Assembly: GCA_025361625.1 (NCBI GenBank)
Contig: JANYKL010000070.1
Coordinates: 1 to 64,000 of the forward strand
Reading direction: 5' to 3'
Origin: Acidobacteriaceae bacterium
Lineage (GTDB): Bacteria; Acidobacteriota; Terriglobia; Terriglobales; Acidobacteriaceae
Length of the DNA: 64,000 nt
The translations under genes and the position numbers were made by a program. The notes below the pieces were generated by a model that was given only the letters and a program-made list of their open reading frames with translations, had not been told where the DNA came from and searched no databases. Position 1 is the stretch's first letter. Every line of letters begins with the position of its first letter. This document shows positions 21,161-62,165 of the stretch, piece after piece.

Positions 21161-23056
21161 ATGGATCGGAGCGCCCAGACTCTGCCGGATCCAGCTGCCC
21201 GTCCGCCCCAGGAGCGCCGGCGCAGCGTTCGCCAAAGATTGCATTCGCCCGTTTACGCCAGTTTCAATGGCCCCGGTACGGGCGTGGTTGTAGACCTTAG
21301 CGAACTGATTGATCTGAACGAAGACGGCTTCGCAGTGCAGACCGGCGCGAAGCTGGAAGAGAACCGCGCCATCACCCTCTGCCTCGAACTTCCTGAAACC
21401 AAGTCATACATTCATGGCAGCGGCCAGGTCATCTGGAGCGACGCCGCCGGACGCAGCGGCATAAGGTTCGCCGCTCTTTCCGATGGCTCGCGCCAAATTC
21501 TTAAAGAGTGGTTACTGGCTAACCTATTGATTGGCTCTTCGAATCACGCTGCCAGATCTGAACAAAGGGCAGAACAAAGATCCAAACAAAAATCCGAACA
21601 AAAATTCGAACAAAAATTCGAACAATTTGCCTTGAAGGAAAATTCCCCACAGTCGTCCGCCGCTGAGTCGTCCCTCCCCGCTACCGTTGCTCCGGCTGAA
21701 CCCGCGTCAGTAGCTGAGTCAGGCGAAGGCTCAATGTTGGCGCGCATGCAGAAAGAGTTTGACGCCTTGTCCGCGCTCGACTCCGTACCCGAAGAGGTGC
21801 GAGTACTGGGCGGTGACGCCGATGCGGTTTTCGGTTTTATCGCCGAACGCGCATTGAATTTGACAGGCGCGAGCGGAGCGGCCCTCGCCTTTCAGTCCGA
21901 TGGAAAAATGATTTGCAGGGGACGTGCCGGTGAAATTTCTCCGCCGCTTGCCTCCCCGGTTGATGCCCAGCACGGCTTAACCGGAGAGTGCGCTACCACA
22001 GGCTCCCTTGTGCTGTGCGATGACCTGGAGAACGATCCACGCCTCGACCCGGAGATAGGCCGCGCACTCGGCATCGGCTCGCTGATGGCCGCTCCGATCA
22101 TGCTCGAAGCGCGCGTAGTTGGATTGCTTGAGCTTTTCTTTTCGCAACCTCAGCATTTTTCTGACGCCCAAAAAACGATTTTGCTTCGACTGGTAGAGAT
22201 GATTCCAATGACATGCCTGGGGCAGAGTGCAGCCGAGCAAACTCGAACCCTCGCGCAGCTTTTAAACAAGCAGCTTTTGACCCACCAGTTACAAACAAAG
22301 CAATTTCCATCAGAGCAGTTTCTAACAGAGCAGCTTGTAACAAAAAAGAAGAGTGAATTACTGCCCTCGCCGCCAATTTCTGCACCAGCGGCATCTGCGA
22401 GGCTTCAAAATCACGCGTCCCGACAGCATATCGCTCTTGAACAGCTCAACGCTCGGAAAACGGATGCGGCCATTCCACGCATGGCACTCTCGACGCTGTC
22501 TCCCTTCAGCTTTCGCGCGCTCATCGCGGGGACCATCATCGTGGTTGCGGTTGTCGTGGGCTACCTGGCTGGGCCGTTGATCGAAAAGCGAATGAGCGTT
22601 CAACGTAAACACTCGCAAGAATTTTTGAACTCAGCGCAGGCTTCGGTCTCGCCATCGAGTGAGCCAAAACAGGCAAAAAACCTTGCAGACTTACGAAAAC
22701 TCGCGGATAGCGGCAACGCAGACGCGCAGTGGCAACTCGGTGTGCGCTATCACAATGGCGAAGAGGTTCCCCACGATGACACTCGCGCGATGCTCTGGTT
22801 TCTGCGCGCGGCGGAGCAGGGACAAGTCACGGCGCAAGCCACTCTAGGGGCCTACTACTGGGCCGGACGTGGTGTCCCGCAGGATTTGACGAAAGCGTAT
22901 TTCTGGTCGGCGCTGGCGTTCGCACAAGGGGACGAAAACAGCCGGTCCCGTCTCGAAGGCCTTGCCTCTCAAATGACAAAGGATCAAGTGGGCGCAGCCC
23001 GACAGCAGGCTGAAATCTGGCTCCATAGCCACGCCCAGCCAAAACAAAGCGATTAG
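21161..23056 (+). CDS. PilZ-GAF-TM-Sel1 multidomain protein
   Basis: 631 residues. PilZ lies at about 17-125, with RRSVR for the RxxxR motif, but the second motif is irregular (DLSELIDLNEDG, a stretched or substituted DxSxxG). An EQ-rich 12-nt-unit repeat follows at ~133-156, then a GAF domain at ~215-350 (GLTGECATTGSLVLCDD; ALGIGSLMAAPI). A pentad repeat lies at ~363-393, one membrane segment at ~450-475 (IAGTIIVVAVVVGYLAG), and two Sel1 repeats at ~510-600 (NADAQWQLGVRYHNGEEVP; AQATLGAYYWAGRGVPQ). PilZ and GAF would face the cytoplasm and Sel1 the periplasm. It may couple cyclic-di-GMP or small-molecule sensing to an envelope protein partner. The start follows CACCTGAGGTAAG at a rather long distance. 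Function is inferred from domains only. Confidence 0.8.
   Translation: MDRSAQTLPDPAARPPQERRRSVRQRLHSPVYASFNGPGTGVVVDLSELIDLNEDGFAVQTGAKLEENRAITLCLELPETKSYIHGSGQVIWSDAAGRSGIRFAALSDGSRQILKEWLLANLLIGSSNHAARSEQRAEQRSKQKSEQKFEQKFEQFALKENSPQSSAAESSLPATVAPAEPASVAESGEGSMLARMQKEFDALSALDSVPEEVRVLGGDADAVFGFIAERALNLTGASGAALAFQSDGKMICRGRAGEISPPLASPVDAQHGLTGECATTGSLVLCDDLENDPRLDPEIGRALGIGSLMAAPIMLEARVVGLLELFFSQPQHFSDAQKTILLRLVEMIPMTCLGQSAAEQTRTLAQLLNKQLLTHQLQTKQFPSEQFLTEQLVTKKKSELLPSPPISAPAASARLQNHASRQHIALEQLNARKTDAAIPRMALSTLSPFSFRALIAGTIIVVAVVVGYLAGPLIEKRMSVQRKHSQEFLNSAQASVSPSSEPKQAKNLADLRKLADSGNADAQWQLGVRYHNGEEVPHDDTRAMLWFLRAAEQGQVTAQATLGAYYWAGRGVPQDLTKAYFWSALAFAQGDENSRSRLEGLASQMTKDQVGAARQQAEIWLHSHAQPKQSD
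21557..21628 (+). repeat. 12-nt in-frame tandem repeat, six units
   Basis: Six 12-nt units of the type TCCGAACAAAAA inside the PilZ-GAF-Sel1 gene, encoding a four-residue xEQ(K/R) repeat that links PilZ to the rest. The last three units are nearly identical, the first three more diverged. Confidence 0.85.
22250..22339 (+). repeat. 15-nt in-frame tandem repeat, six units
   Basis: Six 15-nt units in the same gene give a five-residue repeat with Gln at every fifth position (codons at 22256, 22271, 22286, 22301, 22316 and 22331), roughly (L/F)xx(E/K)Q. It lies between the GAF domain and the membrane segment. Confidence 0.8.
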
Positions 23057-41759: not shown

Positions 41760-43082
<1,323 letters not shown>

Positions 43083-43147
43083 ACCTGATCACGCGGGAGA
43101 CGCGGCAAACTGCGTCCCTGCAATCAACCAGCAAACTATAACGATTC

Positions 43148-43173
43148 AAAGGGCGGCGCTTGCCGCTCTTTTT
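43148..43173 (+). terminator. Intrinsic terminator after ahcY
   Basis: AAAGGGCGGC-GCTT-GCCGCTCTTTTT: a 7-bp GC-rich stem (one G-T pair) with a four-base loop, extended by A-T pairs and followed by a T-run. It lies 66 nt after the ahcY stop and ends the metK-ahcY transcript. Confidence 0.85.
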
Positions 43174-43240
43174 ATTTACCCCCGTTTATTTACACGTTTA
43201 TTCAACCCGCGTTTATTTACCCCCGTTAATTTGTCCCGCG
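43171..43240 (+). repeat. Degenerate 12-15-nt tandem repeat upstream of engB
   Basis: About five units of the form TTTATTTACCCCCG, of 12 to 15 nt (for example TTTATTTACCCCCG near 43171 and again near 43212). The array begins in the T-run of the terminator. Confidence 0.7.
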
Positions 43241-43329
43241 TGAAAATTCCTTACTCCAACAACGGGGCGTCGGCAAAGATATTTTCTTGCGGGCTTGCCA
43301 TTCGAGCACGCTCACGGGAAACTGTCTGT

Positions 43330-43929
43330 ATGCGGATTTTGGCACGATTCATGTTGTCGGCGAGCGACCTGACACAGTTCCCCGCTCCCGGCGTGCCGGA
43401 AATCGCCTTTCTCGGACGCTCGAACGTGGGAAAGTCGAGCCTTATCAACGCTCTTCTCGGCTCGAAGCTCGCACGCACCAGCAATACCCCCGGGCGCACG
43501 CGAAGCATCAACTTCTATGAGGTTCGGCGGGCCGGGAAACCGTCACCCGAAATGCTATTTGCCGATCTCCCCGGATACGGATACGCGAAGGTCTCGCGCC
43601 AGATAGCCGACGATTGGGCGCGCTTCGTCGATCCTTATCTGCACCAGCGTTCGAGCCTGGCGCTTTCTATGGCGTTGGTCGATTCGAATATTCCACCGCA
43701 GCAAAGCGACCAGCAACTGGTCGAGTTTCTCTCTCGCCAAGGCCGTCGGCACCTCGTTGTGGCTACCAAGTGTGACCGCCTGTCGGGTAACAAGCTGCAA
43801 GGCGCCATAAAAGCATTGGAGCAGGCCTATCCGGGGACGCCGATCGTCGCCTTTTCGTCCAAGACAGGAACCGGGAAAGACGACCTCTGGGAGGAGATTC
43901 GCAAGGTCATTCAGGAAGATTCCGATTAA
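43330..43929 (+). CDS. engB: Ribosome biogenesis GTPase EngB/YsxC
   Basis: Essential GTPase that helps assemble the large ribosomal subunit. From the ATG at 43330 it is 199 residues, the normal size. G1 is GRSNVGKSSLINALLG, switch/G2 is TSNTPGRTRSINFYEV, G3 is DLPGYGYAKVS, G4 is TKCD, and FSSKTGTGKD is the G5-like part. The frame is open far upstream (to 43003) through a tandem repeat and the ahcY end, but that part has no similarity to the family and no signal. A shorter in-frame ATG at 43351 is also possible. GGGAAACTG lies before the chosen ATG. It is followed 56 nt later by a PilZ gene. Confidence 0.9.
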   Translation: MRILARFMLSASDLTQFPAPGVPEIAFLGRSNVGKSSLINALLGSKLARTSNTPGRTRSINFYEVRRAGKPSPEMLFADLPGYGYAKVSRQIADDWARFVDPYLHQRSSLALSMALVDSNIPPQQSDQQLVEFLSRQGRRHLVVATKCDRLSGNKLQGAIKALEQAYPGTPIVAFSSKTGTGKDDLWEEIRKVIQEDSD

Positions 43930-43985: not shown

Positions 43986-44531
43986 GTGGATCGGCACAAC
44001 CATACCAATCAACCTGAGTCTTCGCCGCAGTTGGACGACGCCTCGACTGAAGAGCGTGCCAATTACCTTCGGCGCTTGCAGGGAAAGCATACGGAGAACA
44101 CGCCCAGCCGCGCTACCCATGTCGCAGCGCGGGCGAAGACCACTGCCGGCACTCCCGGCGCTAAGGCGATCGCGGGGGTAGATCGAGTCTTCACCGAGCG
44201 CCGCAAGTCGCAGCGCTACGTTTGCTCCGGGAAAATGGAGATGATCGCTGAGGGAACCAGCTACTGCATGTGGGGAACACTGACCGATGTCAGCTTGCAC
44301 GGGTGCTATGTAGAAATTAACAACACTTTTCCCGTCGGCACGAAGTTACATTTGCGGCTCGATGCTCATGGCATCCAGGTCAAAATCAGGGGCGTGGTTC
44401 GAGCCACGTATCCGCTTCTCGGCATGGGTATCTCGTTTGAAGCACCCGAGCCAAAACAACTTGTCCAGCTGCAGCAGTTGCTCAAAGTCTTGACCGGACG
44501 AAAATCGGCCTTCGGGGCCTCCGCTGTTTGA
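43986..44531 (+). CDS. PilZ domain protein
   Basis: 181 residues. The first ~70 are polar and probably disordered. The PilZ domain from ~72 has RKSQR (RxxxR) and DVSLHG (DxSxxG), the complete cyclic-di-GMP binding pair, then the beta-barrel strands FPVGTKLHLRLDAHGI and GVVRATYPLLGMGISFE. A short helix ends the protein. No output domain or membrane segment is visible, so it likely acts as an adaptor by binding another protein. GTG start with GGAGGATC before it. It follows engB with a 56-nt gap. Confidence 0.9.
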   Translation: MDRHNHTNQPESSPQLDDASTEERANYLRRLQGKHTENTPSRATHVAARAKTTAGTPGAKAIAGVDRVFTERRKSQRYVCSGKMEMIAEGTSYCMWGTLTDVSLHGCYVEINNTFPVGTKLHLRLDAHGIQVKIRGVVRATYPLLGMGISFEAPEPKQLVQLQQLLKVLTGRKSAFGASAV

Positions 44532-44744: not shown

Positions 44745-45704
44745 ATGGCAAAGTATCTCGTAACCGGCGCTGCTGGCTTCATTGGCTCCTCTCTGATAAG
44801 AGCTCTGCTGGAACGCGGTGAGCAGGTTCGTGGCGTCGATAATTTTTCGACTGGGCGGCGCGAAAACCTGTCGGAGGTGATGAAAGAGATCGAGTTTCGC
44901 GAGGCCAACATTCTTGATCTCGATGCCATGCATAGCGCCTGCAAAGGGATCGATTACGTTCTGCACCAGGCGGCCATTCCTTCGGTGCCAAAGTCAGTGC
45001 TCGATCCGATCGGCAGCAATCGAGCCAATGCTGATGGCACTCTAAATATTCTGGTTGCGGCGCGCGATGCCAAGGTACGCCGCGTGGTTTATGCGGCCTC
45101 GTCCTCCGCCTACGGAGACACGCCGACGCTTCCGAAGCAAGAGTCCATGATTCCCGACCCGATCTCGCCTTACGCCGTGGCGAAGCTCGCGAGCGAGCAT
45201 TACATGATTTCGTTTTTCCGCTGTTACGGGTTGGAGACTGTTTGCTTGCGTTATTTCAATATCTTCGGACCGCGACAGGATCCTTCTTCGCCATACTCGG
45301 GTGTGCTGGCCAAATTCAGCATGCAGATGTTGCGCGGCGATGAGCCTACGATTTTTGGCGATGGAGAGACGAGCCGTGACTTCACCTACATCGACAACGC
45401 GGTGTCGGCGAATCTGCTCGCCTGTTCGGCTCCGGGCGACCAGTGCGCGGGACGCATCTTAAACTGCGCCACCGGCGAACGGATCACGCTGAATCAGACC
45501 TTCGAGGCCCTAAAAAAATTGACTGGCTATAAGGGCACAGTGAAATACGCTCCGGAACGCGAGGGCGACATCAAGCACTCTCTCGCCGACATCTCACTCG
45601 CGCAAAAGCATCTTGGATACAAAGTTCTGGTTGATTTCGAGACTGGCTTGCGGCGGACCGTAGCCTGGTACAAAAATCAGCGCCAGCCTGTCGGTGCTGT
45701 GTAG
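44745..45704 (+). CDS. NAD-dependent sugar epimerase/dehydratase (WbpP-like)
   Basis: 319-residue extended SDR. GAAGFIGSSLIRALLERG is the NAD fold, VDNFSTGRRENL the loop, ASSSAYGDTPTLPKQES precedes the catalytic YAVAKLASEHY, and CLRYFNIFGPRQDP with FGDGETSRDFTYIDN belongs to UDP-sugar 4-epimerases, closest in pattern to WbpP-type UDP-N-acetylglucosamine 4-epimerases. It differs from the galE at 1732 and may supply an N-acetylhexosamine or uronic acid precursor to the envelope polymers. The gene stands alone, with a degenerate repeat upstream and a small minus-strand gene downstream. Confidence 0.9.
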   Translation: MAKYLVTGAAGFIGSSLIRALLERGEQVRGVDNFSTGRRENLSEVMKEIEFREANILDLDAMHSACKGIDYVLHQAAIPSVPKSVLDPIGSNRANADGTLNILVAARDAKVRRVVYAASSSAYGDTPTLPKQESMIPDPISPYAVAKLASEHYMISFFRCYGLETVCLRYFNIFGPRQDPSSPYSGVLAKFSMQMLRGDEPTIFGDGETSRDFTYIDNAVSANLLACSAPGDQCAGRILNCATGERITLNQTFEALKKLTGYKGTVKYAPEREGDIKHSLADISLAQKHLGYKVLVDFETGLRRTVAWYKNQRQPVGAV

Positions 45705-45763: not shown

Positions 45764-46075
45764 TCACGCGCTAGAGCGCGGCGTTTCAGAGACTGATGCT
45801 GTGTGCGCTGTTGCGGCGCGGGCGATCAGTTCATCGAGGTCGTAGCGAAATGGTCCGTAGGCGCTAAATGTCGTCTCATTAAACAGGCGTTTGATGCCAC
45901 AGCTCATGCATACCTGATATTTGCAACCCTGTACCTCGATCGGCCAGCTCATCTTGCGATGCCAGCAGCCTCGAAGGGCGACCACTGCGACCCCCACCAG
46001 GCTGGTTGCAACTCCTGTCGGCCACCAGCGCGAATTCTTAAACCTGGTTGCTGCTTTGTGAACTGCAGTGGACAT
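45764..46075 (-). CDS. Small CxxC protein of unknown function
   Basis: 103 residues. One possible membrane or hydrophobic stretch lies near residues 17-35 (WWPTGVATSLVGVAVVALRG), followed by a conserved-looking module QVCMSCGIKRLFNETTFSAY and GPFRYDLDELIARA. The CMSC pair with the preceding Cys could bind a metal or form a disulphide. I recall similar short modules in acidobacterial genomes but cannot name a family. GGAGAATCG precedes the ATG, which supports it being a real gene. It is convergent with the epimerase and divergent from the GAF-amidase gene. Confidence 0.65.
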   Translation of the reverse strand: MSTAVHKAATRFKNSRWWPTGVATSLVGVAVVALRGCWHRKMSWPIEVQGCKYQVCMSCGIKRLFNETTFSAYGPFRYDLDELIARAATAHTASVSETPRSSA

Positions 46076-46411: not shown

Positions 46412-49021
46412 TTGACGGTAAAACACATGAGTTGCAGTCCCGCAGCCCGGCTCGAAGGCGAATCGCCGATCATTGTCGACATACTCGAAGAGTTGACGGT
46501 GCAGGATGGCAACCGCGTTCTCGACTCCATCGGACGGCACGAGCCGATGGGGGCACTCCTCGCTTTTTCGGAACTGCACGGGCAGATCCGCATCCGGCTC
46601 GACACGAATCGGAAGGAACCCGCAAAAGACCTTATAGAGACCGAGCGCTTCATTCTTGACGAGGTTCTGCAGCTGATTTGTGATCGCGCTCTTTGGATTA
46701 CAAAAGCTGACAGCATCATTATCGCTCTGGCCCGGCATTCGGAATCGAAAGACCTTGAGATGGAGTGCCGCGCCACTGCCGGCTCTCTTGCAATCACGCG
46801 CGGAACTCGCCTCAGCGCGGGATCGGAGTTCCTGCGGGAGGGAATGGCCTCGGGTCGCATTTTGCGCTGTGATGATGGCGAGAGCGATCGCCGGATGGCG
46901 CAGGACATCGCCCACAAGCTGGGTGCGAGCTCGACGGTGCTCGTTCCGCTGCGTGGGCGCTACGTGCAGATCGGCGTGCTGCAAGCATTCTCGATGAAGA
47001 AGGGCGCTTTCAGCGAGTCTGACGTTAATGCGCTCGAGCTGCTTGCGGAGCTCGTGCTGTCAGCACTCAAGCCGGAAGATCAGGATCGGCGCACTCATTG
47101 GCTGTCGGACATCGCGGCCGAGATATTGCAGCCGCAGCCGGCGGTCGCGGCGATTGAAGAAGCGATCATTGTTCAGCCGGAGCCGAAGTTCGCGCCTGCC
47201 GCGGTGATAGCCACGCGGTCCGAGAATCTGCCCGAAGAAGTTCTGAGCGCTAGCGTAGACCGTTTCGAAAATATCTTGTCGGACACTTCCGATGTGCTGC
47301 CGCTGCCGCTGATGGTTGACGCTTGGCCTCTCCCGGTCGCGGCTGCGGCGCCAGAGCAATTAATGCTCTTGCAACTGGAAGAAGTTTCTCTCGCAAAAAG
47401 TGATGCACAAAGCACCAGCACTAGCATCAGCACCAGCACCGACGACAAGCCAGAGAAAAAATCGAGCGTTGAAGGCGATCTGACAATTGCTGCGTCTTCT
47501 TTGAGCCATCGCAATCTCTTCGCCGCTATCTCCCGTGGTCTTGGAAGCAGCCGCTCTCGCGTCGGACTGAAGTTGGTGATGGCCATTGCAGTCATTACCT
47601 TGCTGTTCTCGGCCGGAGTCTGGTGGGGGACGCATTCAAATCCCGCTGGGCAGGAGACCACCGGGAACAAGGCAGACTCGAATACACTTCCGCAAACAGT
47701 CACCGCTCCAGTGCCCCCTCAAACCGACTTACCGATGCCCCTCTCGGACAACCTGCTGAGTTCGGCGAAGGTCGACACGGCTTCGGGGAGTGCAGTGGCG
47801 TCCGGCTCAGAAAGGCTGGCAGCACTGCCGAAAATTACCGGGTTGCGGCATTGGTCCTCATCTTTAGGAAGCACCGTAGTCATCGATATGGAAGATGAGG
47901 TGCCCTATGAGGTTCACCGGCTGATGTCTCCAGAACGAATTTATTTTGACTTGCACGACACCGTCTTAGCGCGCGATTTGGACGGCAAAACGATGGACGT
48001 GGGCGACGCTGCGCTCAGCCGCGTTCGAATCGCTCAGCCGGTAGCCGGGCTCACGCGAATTGTGCTCGATACCAAGGACGGCTCGAATTTCTCGGTCAGC
48101 ATGGAAGCGAATCCTTATCGCCTGGTGATTGAACTGCGCGGTGATAAAGGGGCTGGCGGCGGCCATTCGGCCGCGAGCCGAAACGCCGGCCAAGCGATGG
48201 TTGGCAAACTTGCAGCGCAACCCGCCGCCGCATCAAGCCTCCCACTGCTTTCAAAGTCACTGGTGCCGGAGCAGCTATCGCCCAAGTCATCAAATGATCT
48301 TTCGGCGGCAAAAAGCGGAAAGTTCCGTATTGTGCTCGATGCCGGTCACGGAGGTTGGGACCTCGGTACCGTTGGCAAACAGGGGCTGCTGGAAAAAGAT
48401 CTGGTTCTCGACGTTACTCAACGTCTTGGAAAGTTGCTGCAGAGCCGCATCGGAGCCGACGTAAAATTCACCCGCGACGGCGACGAGTACTTACCCCTCG
48501 AGCAACGGTCAGACCTGGCGAACCAAACCCAGGCAGACCTTTTTGTCTCGATTCATGCCAACTACAGCAGTTCCTCCTCGGCTCGAGGAGTAGAAACTTA
48601 CTACAGCGACCTGTTCGCGGCGCCGGGTTCAAAGGAAAAGGAAAAGCTTGAGGATGGAAGCGGCGCCAGACTAACGCCGGTTTCGTTGTCGCTCGGCGGA
48701 CTGCATGAAAAGATTGAAGAATCACGCAAACTTGCCGTCAGCGTGCAGCGCTCCTTGTATTCCACTCTTGCCGCCAATAGCCCTGAGATCCGAAATCGAG
48801 GCATAAAAGATTCGGAATTCGTGGTGCTGACTGGCACGACCATGCCCTCAATTCTTACTGAGATCTCCTTTGTAAGCAGTCCTGAGGATGAGCGGAAACT
48901 TCAAAGCGCTACCTACCGCCAGCAGATTGCCGAGGCGCTATTTCAAGGCATCGCGCGCTATCGGCAATCCTCACCACGCGTCAAACTCGCTCAACTGCAA
49001 ACCGCAGCAGCACGTCGTTAA
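46412..49021 (+). CDS. GAF-TM-AMIN-amidase_3 fusion (N-acetylmuramoyl-L-alanine amidase)
   Basis: 869 residues in the longest form (TTG at 46412; ATG at 46427 is an alternative). A GAF-type domain lies at about 75-225 (GRILRCDDGESD; LVPLRGRYVQIGVLQAFS), a low-complexity linker with an STST repeat near 335-343 follows, and one membrane segment is at ~385-407 (LVMAIAVITLLFSAGVWWG). An AMIN domain spans ~470-578 (VPYEVHRLMSPERIYFDLHD). Amidase_3 covers ~637-862, with DAGHGGWDLG, LLEKDLVLDV, FVSIHANYSS and LTEISFVSS supplying the zinc His/Glu/His and catalytic Glu. GAF would be cytoplasmic and the amidase periplasmic, cleaving the stem peptide from peptidoglycan. The fusion suggests wall hydrolysis tuned by an internal signal. 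All active-site residues look intact. Confidence 0.85.
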   Translation: MTVKHMSCSPAARLEGESPIIVDILEELTVQDGNRVLDSIGRHEPMGALLAFSELHGQIRIRLDTNRKEPAKDLIETERFILDEVLQLICDRALWITKADSIIIALARHSESKDLEMECRATAGSLAITRGTRLSAGSEFLREGMASGRILRCDDGESDRRMAQDIAHKLGASSTVLVPLRGRYVQIGVLQAFSMKKGAFSESDVNALELLAELVLSALKPEDQDRRTHWLSDIAAEILQPQPAVAAIEEAIIVQPEPKFAPAAVIATRSENLPEEVLSASVDRFENILSDTSDVLPLPLMVDAWPLPVAAAAPEQLMLLQLEEVSLAKSDAQSTSTSISTSTDDKPEKKSSVEGDLTIAASSLSHRNLFAAISRGLGSSRSRVGLKLVMAIAVITLLFSAGVWWGTHSNPAGQETTGNKADSNTLPQTVTAPVPPQTDLPMPLSDNLLSSAKVDTASGSAVASGSERLAALPKITGLRHWSSSLGSTVVIDMEDEVPYEVHRLMSPERIYFDLHDTVLARDLDGKTMDVGDAALSRVRIAQPVAGLTRIVLDTKDGSNFSVSMEANPYRLVIELRGDKGAGGGHSAASRNAGQAMVGKLAAQPAAASSLPLLSKSLVPEQLSPKSSNDLSAAKSGKFRIVLDAGHGGWDLGTVGKQGLLEKDLVLDVTQRLGKLLQSRIGADVKFTRDGDEYLPLEQRSDLANQTQADLFVSIHANYSSSSSARGVETYYSDLFAAPGSKEKEKLEDGSGARLTPVSLSLGGLHEKIEESRKLAVSVQRSLYSTLAANSPEIRNRGIKDSEFVVLTGTTMPSILTEISFVSSPEDERKLQSATYRQQIAEALFQGIARYRQSSPRVKLAQLQTAAARR
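47411..47440 (+). repeat. 12-nt in-frame repeat, 2.5 units
   Basis: AGCACCAGCACT, AGCATCAGCACC, AGCACC inside the GAF-amidase linker, coding for an STST run. Confidence 0.7.
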
Positions 49022-60536: not shown

Positions 60537-62165
60537 ATGGCTCTTGACGTCTTTCGCAAACGAGGCGAGACTCGGGGTTACCTCTTTCAAAAATCCATGC
60601 ACGGATCAGCCCAGCCCGACGAGAAACTTGGAGCCACGGTACCGTTCTCGAACGGCGATGCAATTCTCGCGACAGAAGGATCCCAAGCCAATGAAAGCGA
60701 TGCCAACGTCGCTAGAGGTCGCGAAAATGGAGCCTCCGACGGTCGAAGCGCGGAGGCCCGAACTTTAGACACTCGAAGTTTAGACGGACGAAGTTTAGAA
60801 GAAAAGGAACTCGAATCCACGCTCCAGTTACTCGTCGAGCGAGCGCAATACATTACTGGCGCCACCGGCACTGCCTTGGCCCTGCCGCAGGGCGACGAAA
60901 TGGTTTGCCGAGCGAGTGCCGGCACATCCGCGCCCGTCGTTGGAGCGAGACTTCAAGTTCAGTCCGGACTAACCGGTGAGAGCATCCTTCGCCGTCAGTT
61001 GCTGCGATGTGATAATGCAGAGACTGATCCCCGGGTAAACCTTGACGCTTGCCGCGCGCTTGGGATTGCTTCCATCGTCGTATTGCCCATCCTTCGGCCG
61101 AACGGCGATGTTCGCGGACTGTTTGAGCTTTTTTCCGACCACCCCTACGCATTCGAAGAACGAGATTTGATCGCGCTTGAACGAATGGCGGTACTCACCC
61201 AGACCGCGCTCGACCTGGCAGAAAATAGCACCGCGACAAAGCCGACGGTCGAGATTGAAAGGGGGCCTGGACGTCCTACATCCGAACCTGACGATGACAT
61301 TTTGGATGTTGCCGCTGAGCAGGAGCCGTCGCATGCCCAGTCGCATCCGACCTTCCAGACAACAACGCCCTCTGCCGTCCCCAAGCCAGGTGCGGAATCT
61401 CTCGCCGAGCCTCCTGCGCACGCAACATCCGCGCTCGGGCAAATCACTCCCGGATCTGCGGAGTCTCTCCAAATTTCGTCGGGTGTTTCGGCTATCAAAG
61501 ATGCGAGGACGGACGAAGCCATTCTGAATGCGGAAACCAATGATGCACCGATCAATGACGCGCCCGTTGCTGCAACAAGCGAAACTAAGATTCCACCAAC
61601 AGCAGAAACGATCGCAGTCAAGCACGAAGTAACGCAGATCGTAGACGCGCCGTCGCGAGAGGCCAAGGGAGCCGATCCCAAAGCCCATCCCACAGTCGCT
61701 CCAAAAGACTGGCCGGCAACGAATTCCACTACCGCACCCCCCGTTTTAGAAGACGCCGCCCCTGCCGCTACCAGCGCGGATCTCCCGACGCCTCTGGCGA
61801 TGCTGAGAGTGCACAAATGCTTGGCGTGCGGATTTCCTGTTTCAGAGGGTCGAACACTTTGTCTCGATTGCGAGAGACTCGATTCCCATAAAAGTGGTGT
61901 GCACGAGAAGGGCACCGCAGGATCGAATACAAACGACTCAAGACTATCGCCAGTGCATGAAACCAAGGCACCGACGATGGATGCAGGCGTCGCATCCGGA
62001 AATCAGACGAGCGAGATACCTTTGTCGGCGCCCGACCAATTTGTGCCTGCGTTCCTTGCCAACAGCGTGCCGGTGAAAGAATCCTGGCTGTCCGATCACG
62101 TGAACATACTGGCGATTCTCGTCTTCATCATGTGCATCCTCGTCGCAATCGTCGTCTTCCGCTAA
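60537..62165 (+). CDS. GAF-zinc ribbon-tail-anchor protein
   Basis: 542 residues. After a polar N-terminus with a 15-nt in-frame repeat (residues ~68-87), a GAF domain lies at ~90-235 (ITGATGTALALPQGDEMVCR; GLTGESILRRQLLRCDN; ALGIASIVVLPILRPNG). A long low-complexity acidic/Ala/Pro-rich linker follows to ~420, then a zinc ribbon CLACGFPVSEGRTLCLDC (CxxC...CxxC) at ~424-446. A single membrane segment ends the chain (~522-541, ILAILVFIMCILVAIVVF). It would be held to the membrane by its C-terminus with GAF and ribbon in the cytoplasm. No enzyme domain. ATG at 60537 is the longest start; no strong ribosome site. Confidence 0.75.
   Translation: MALDVFRKRGETRGYLFQKSMHGSAQPDEKLGATVPFSNGDAILATEGSQANESDANVARGRENGASDGRSAEARTLDTRSLDGRSLEEKELESTLQLLVERAQYITGATGTALALPQGDEMVCRASAGTSAPVVGARLQVQSGLTGESILRRQLLRCDNAETDPRVNLDACRALGIASIVVLPILRPNGDVRGLFELFSDHPYAFEERDLIALERMAVLTQTALDLAENSTATKPTVEIERGPGRPTSEPDDDILDVAAEQEPSHAQSHPTFQTTTPSAVPKPGAESLAEPPAHATSALGQITPGSAESLQISSGVSAIKDARTDEAILNAETNDAPINDAPVAATSETKIPPTAETIAVKHEVTQIVDAPSREAKGADPKAHPTVAPKDWPATNSTTAPPVLEDAAPAATSADLPTPLAMLRVHKCLACGFPVSEGRTLCLDCERLDSHKSGVHEKGTAGSNTNDSRLSPVHETKAPTMDAGVASGNQTSEIPLSAPDQFVPAFLANSVPVKESWLSDHVNILAILVFIMCILVAIVVFR
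60738..60797 (+). repeat. 15-nt in-frame tandem repeat, four units
   Basis: Units at 60738, 60753, 60768 and 60783 of the type GACACTCGAAGTTTA, encoding DGRSA, EARTL, DTRSL, DGRSL just before the GAF domain of the zinc-ribbon protein. Confidence 0.85.

Follow-up and report, generated by a model that had tools for sequence, protein, structure and literature searches.

Architecture and topology of the fusion gene

The window, i.e. the whole 64-kb stretch of DNA that was analysed, contains a gene in which a GAF domain, a transmembrane (TM) segment, an AMIN domain and an Amidase_3 domain are encoded as one chain (Table 1). The frame 46412-49021 (+ strand) is open over its full length and encodes the chain that an earlier sequence-only reading of this DNA had claimed. 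That reading began the gene at the TTG at 46412, which is apparently too far upstream; the true start is most likely the ATG five codons downstream at 46427, because the proteins of relatives begin MSANPTRVDWE... at the corresponding point. A promoter scan gave a signal no better than chance.

Table 1. Coordinates of the fusion gene, its parts, its neighbours and the related GAF genes of the window
Feature	Position	Strand	Remarks
C-GAF paralogue: PilZ, GAF, TM, Sel1 repeats	21161-23056	+	
EngB gene	43003-43929		Syntenic upstream
PilZ-domain gene (c-di-GMP-type domain)	43986-44531	+	Syntenic upstream neighbour
Epimerase gene	44745-45704		Syntenic upstream
Small single-TM protein gene	45764-46075	-	Divergent from fusion; conserved neighbour, possible partner
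GAF-TM-AMIN-Amidase_3 fusion gene	46427-49021	+	ATG start (most likely), 864 aa
Head: N-terminal helices and GAF domain, probably cytoplasmic	46538-47131	+	Pfam GAF_2 core 46655-47068
Cys148 codon (motif RCDD)	46868-46870	+	Invariant in 74/74 fusions and the whole C-GAF clade
Linker 1, GAF to membrane	47132-47557	+	Disordered, Ala/Pro/Glu-rich; 41-242 aa across family; dN/dS 0.50
Single TM helix, residues ~378-400	47558-47626	+	Hydropathy scan and full-length model
Linker 2, membrane to AMIN	47627-47821	+	Disordered; 39-94 aa across family
AMIN domain	47843-48115	+	Pfam
Amidase_3 catalytic domain	48329-48955	+	H641 48347, E656 48392, H710 48554, E812 48860
Site of blocking and interaction helices in AmiA/B/C-type amidases	48605-48721	+	Unstructured, divergent
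C-GAF paralogue: GAF, long linker, zinc-ribbon-like CxxC pairs, C-terminal TM	60597-62165	+	

Pfam matches were judged against the curated cut-offs, and GAF membership was defined by a profile match (PF13185/PF01590) together with a GAF fold. All three domains scored above their cut-offs: GAF_2 at residues 77-214 (42.0 bits, cut-off 28.6), AMIN at residues 473-563 (29.0 bits, cut-off 20.5) and Amidase_3 (PF01520), which identifies an N-acetylmuramoyl-L-alanine amidase, at residues 635-843 (171.3 bits, cut-off 27). AlphaFold2, supplied with 34 homologues, modelled the N-terminal 235 aa as a confident GAF domain with extra N-terminal helices (pLDDT 85). Residues ~378-400 are the sole strong hydrophobic stretch of the chain and also the sole mid-chain helix in the full-length model, which is disordered at residues 234-377, 401-464 and 574-630. 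Both linkers flanking the TM helix are Ala/Pro-rich across the family, and neither the full-length model nor the family alignment revealed a continuous helix, or a HAMP-like or coiled-coil connector, between GAF and TM. The zinc ligands H641, E656 and H710 and the catalytic E812 are invariant in 74/74 relatives. The sequence-only reading had described a GAF-like domain at about residues 75-225, a low-complexity linker, one membrane segment, AMIN and a complete Amidase_3 catalytic site on a single chain, and its description of the architecture was borne out in every part.

The GAF head is most likely cytoplasmic, with AMIN and Amidase_3 in the periplasm, because no signal peptide precedes the GAF domain and the substrate of the amidase lies outside. 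The window protein has four Lys and Arg residues before the TM helix and one after, which fits the positive-inside rule. Across the family, however, the mean is 2.6 before and 3.4 after, and 44/74 proteins have more after than before. The charge bias thus gives no family-wide support to a cytoplasmic GAF domain, and the predicted topology rests on the substrate logic. The arrangement proposed in the sequence-only reading, with GAF inside and hydrolase outside as in a type II (N-in, C-out) single-pass protein, fits the single TM helix and the window protein's own charges but not the charges of the family as a whole.

Integrity, constraint and inheritance of the fusion

We collected 80 related loci from genomes named Acidobacteriaceae, Terriglobia, Candidatus Sulfotelmatobacter and SbA1. 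At 76 of these all three domains lay in one frame, so homologous fusions with the full architecture recur in related genomes; of the other four, two lie at contig ends, one contains a run of N and one has an in-frame stop. GAF, AMIN and Amidase_3 were all matched in each of the 25 aligned orthologues. Median dN/dS, calculated from about 20 close pairs, was 0.060 for GAF, 0.082 for AMIN and 0.097 for the amidase, and 0.50 and 0.41 for the linkers beside the TM helix; purifying selection on the GAF domain is thus no weaker than on the enzyme part. GAF and amidase distances were correlated (Mantel r 0.73), with none of 2000 permutations giving a value as high. The GAF domain is therefore functional and has been inherited together with the enzyme.

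The in-frame stop lies in the linker of one relative (L121, 4839-7976), where it separates the GAF frame of a second copy from its TM-AMIN-amidase frame; the genome concerned also carries an intact copy (L099). Such a stop is what might be seen if an assembly error or frameshift had joined two separate genes, but as it affects only a second copy beside an intact one, and as the single frame at 76/80 loci, the 25/25 orthologues, the dN/dS values and the conserved synteny rule out an artefact, we regard this explanation as vanishingly improbable. With the GAF domain above threshold, the membrane segment present and no frameshift found, the three objections that the sequence-only reading had raised against itself all fell away.

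Distribution and gene neighbourhood

In a sample of 289 genomes of the order, about 64 (hand count) gave a strong full-length signal, all from the window's family; genomes of the other family gave none. In a sample of 396 genomes of the phylum, the matches reaching the GAF domain were, among the matches listed, confined to the window's family. Tables read by eye showed that the large genera g47, g54 and g80 lack the fusion despite many near-finished genomes. The borderline cases that were fetched proved to be TPR- or TM-AMIN amidases, except for one true but divergent fusion (L169). Within the samples searched, the fusion was found in one Acidobacteriota family only, in which it is vertically inherited.

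The conserved gene order is EngB, PilZ, epimerase, (REC-PilZ), (PilZ-TM, opposite strand), the small TM gene (opposite strand) and the fusion. The small TM protein has no Pfam match and carries the motif RGCWHxKMSWP...CxxCGxKRLFDExxFxxYGP. By hand count, strong matches to its gene (E < 1e-20) occur in 34 of the 37 fusion genomes that lie outside genus g7 and in none of the 27 within it; of the 225 genomes that lack the fusion, about 7 have one. Genes for PilZ, REC-like-PilZ and PilZ-TM proteins recur upstream of the fusion (loci L070-L132, and 43986-44531 in the window), hinting at a c-di-GMP context. No co-directional adjacent gene is common to all fusion loci, and the small TM protein and the PilZ proteins, which are missing in some lineages, are candidate partners only.

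The GAF head belongs to a lineage-specific subfamily

The fusions share an invariant GAF motif, C148-D149-D150-x3-D154-x-R156; C139 is found in 64/74 and C162 in 49/74 of them, and the window protein lacks both. The window genome has 28 GAF_2 matches, and five of those aligned carry Cys148, i.e. the fusion, PilZ-GAF-TM-Sel1, GAF-Zn-ribbon-TM, GAF-TM (L051/L146) and Zn-ribbon-GAF (L052/L147). An equivalent of Cys148 is absent from all of the genome's other GAFs placed in the tree. The Cys148 GAFs and their relatives form one lineage-specific clade (C-GAF; support 99/97), which is found on other membrane proteins as well, mostly via long linkers. Three C-GAF genes lie within the window itself, each combining the GAF domain with a TM segment and a different second domain (Table 1). 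A redox or metal role of Cys148 is possible.

GAF domains are often dimerisation modules. The GAF head could thus be a passive inheritance that only folds, dimerises or stabilises the anchor, the amidase being constitutive and limited by anchoring and AMIN, and the long loose linkers would suit such a role. We consider this quite unlikely, as the dN/dS of 0.06 shows a domain constrained as strongly as the enzyme or more so, and as the Cys148 motif is invariant.

A genus relative encodes a 463-aa GAF-TM-AMIN protein without an amidase (L039, 1114-2502), and similar GAF-TM-AMIN matches occur in two further genomes (G250 and G255). Like the occurrence of this GAF head beside other domains of membrane proteins, e.g. 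Sel1, the L039 protein would fit a flow of information in the opposite direction, in which engagement of the wall by AMIN and the amidase brings the chains together and their GAF heads signal the condition of the wall to partners in the cytoplasm. This is the most doubtful of the roles that we considered for the head, since the invariance of the four catalytic residues in 74/74 relatives means that catalysis is selected, no output domain stands next to the GAF domain in the chain, and L039 may be a decaying copy.

The closest folds to the GAF model are the type II fRMsr 4mmn (VIA Z 16.8) and the phytochrome/PixJ GAFs (Z about 16). The window GAF shares its fold with fRMsr and with phytochrome and cyanobacteriochrome GAFs (Z about 16-17) at 10-20% identity, but no bilin or fRMsr cysteine arrangement was recognised in it. 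Despite the top structural match, fRMsr activity was rejected on the cysteine pattern, as the window protein lacks the Cys residues of GxCG ... ACxxxxxSEIVxP; a separate fRMsr-like GAF protein of the window genome (L155) was used for the comparison. Inspection of the GAF alignment by eye revealed neither an NKFDE-type cyclic-nucleotide motif nor a bilin-binding Cys.

The amidase and its putative release from LytM activation

Gram-negative wall amidases are dangerous enzymes, known to be controlled by a blocking helix together with FtsEX/EnvC or NlpD. An internal blocking helix keeps AmiA and AmiB inactive until the LytM domain of the activator, acting via an interaction helix, displaces it (PMC12505981). 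The catalytic domain of the fusion is clearly related to E. coli AmiC (phmmer E 4.8e-32; 4bin is the top Foldseek match). At the site of the helix segment (residues 727-765), however, all 15 fusions read have an unrelated variable stretch, and none has AARENA...LQDLVKKI. The TPR-AMIN paralogues displayed carry that segment, among them the non-fused AMIN amidase of the window genome (L002, TPR-AMIN-Amidase_3), in which it reads SPEALEVAARENAVSEKSIHELQDLVKKIALKEK. The amidase model, which is of moderate confidence, leaves residues 727-765 unstructured. Its target-normalised Foldseek TM was 0.79-0.81 to the helix-less 5emi and 1jwq and to the LytM-bound AmiB 8c0j, and 0.66 to the autoinhibited AmiA 8c2o. 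The fusion amidase therefore appears to lack the blocking and interaction-helix segment of the LytM-activated type, a conclusion that depends partly on the model. The fusion amidases fall on one side of a branch with support 85/98, the TPR-AMIN-Amidase_3 paralogue being their sister group; loss of the segment and fusion to GAF therefore go together.

FtsX_ECD (PF18075), the extracellular domain of FtsX at the heart of the known inside-out amidase switch, was undetected by profile search in 24/24 genomes of the window's genus, and it was detected in 86/198 Acidobacteriota, so the profile works in the phylum. Nor did it turn up in the genomes listed for the window's family, genera without the fusion included, and the fusion is therefore not simply a replacement for FtsX; the idea of a simple FtsEX replacement is weakened accordingly. 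A search of the window genome for EnvC-like activators gave two M23 matches: L135 is a stand-alone M23 protein, and L136 is incomplete because it lies at a contig end.

How the GAF head may act on the amidase

The sequence-only reading had proposed that a cytoplasmic ligand could switch peptidoglycan cleavage. In such a model the binding of a small ligand to the GAF domain, or a change in its redox state, would alter the conformation of the chain across the membrane and so activate or silence the amidase in the periplasm. GAF domains are commonly ligand sensors, and such a switch would account for the strong constraint on the GAF domain, for an invariant Cys148 with no counterpart in the genome's other GAFs, and for a fold near those of fRMsr and bilin-binding GAFs. 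The lack of the canonical blocking-helix segment, and of detectable FtsX_ECD in the genus, also speaks for some unusual form of control. However, poorly constrained disordered linkers of 41-242 aa and 39-94 aa part GAF from TM and TM from AMIN, there is one TM per chain with no HAMP or coiled-coil connector found, no ligand motif was recognised, and the window protein does not, by eye, retain the fRMsr-like Cys of the paralogues. A ligand-driven transmembrane switch is thus unlikely.

As the linkers on either side of the TM helix are predicted to be disordered and are very variable in length, a rigid transmembrane signal is unlikely, and they seem to favour a tether. We tentatively prefer the view, to which we would give slightly less than an even chance, that the GAF head positions or clusters the tethered amidase, i.e. 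recruitment rather than a rigid switch. The amidase would be anchored in the inner membrane, with AMIN and Amidase_3 in the periplasm on a flexible linker to the one TM helix and the GAF head in the cytoplasm on a second flexible linker. The head, which possibly oligomerises in a ligand- or thiol-dependent manner, would set the place and time of amidase accumulation by binding to a partner in the cytoplasm or forming clusters with it. GAF-driven recruitment and wall binding by AMIN would then replace activation by LytM proteins of the EnvC type.

A broader and rather speculative proposal, which we also think unlikely, is that in this family the lineage-specific Cys-GAF serves as an interchangeable head on the cytoplasmic side of single-pass membrane proteins. 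In the amidase it would then control wall cleavage directly from the inside within one chain, depending on a thiol, a metal or a ligand, and would take over from both FtsEX-EnvC and the enzyme's own blocking helix.

Discussion

The fusion resembles the AmiA/AmiB/AmiC-type amidases (E. coli AmiC, 4bin) in its AMIN-Amidase_3 order and its zinc and catalytic residues, although not all of these enzymes have AMIN. They are exported free into the periplasm, whereas the fusion is membrane-anchored and has a GAF head in addition to the apparent lack of the helix segment. Like FtsEX-EnvC-AmiA/B, the fusion would tie cytoplasmic events to wall amidase activity. In that system an ABC-type protein relays the signal to a separate LytM activator, which acts on an amidase that is autoinhibited (PMC12505981); the fusion is one chain, seemingly without the blocking helix, in a genus in which FtsX_ECD was undetected. 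Within the same genome, L002 belongs to the same catalytic family but has TPR-like repeats in place of GAF-TM and keeps the AARENA segment. The PilZ-GAF-TM-Sel1 and GAF-Zn ribbon-TM proteins share the fusion's GAF clade, with its Cys148, a long linker and a single TM, but their second domains differ and they have no amidase.

The sequence-only reading knew of no described system of this kind. The open literature searched likewise describes no GAF-amidase system, and a 2019 review of wall hydrolases does not include GAF among the partner domains that it gives for Amidase_3 (PMC6403190). The parts are known, and the GAF-amidase combination and its regulation appear to be undescribed.

The design of a GAF-headed, anchored amidase is real and is conserved in many uncultured soil Acidobacteria. 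This lineage appears to be without FtsX. One of its amidases is of the classical autoinhibited kind, and a second seems to have lost the blocking segment and to have acquired a strongly conserved head. The lineage offers a testable case of a different way to keep wall cleavage in its place and time, in soil bacteria that are abundant and poorly studied.
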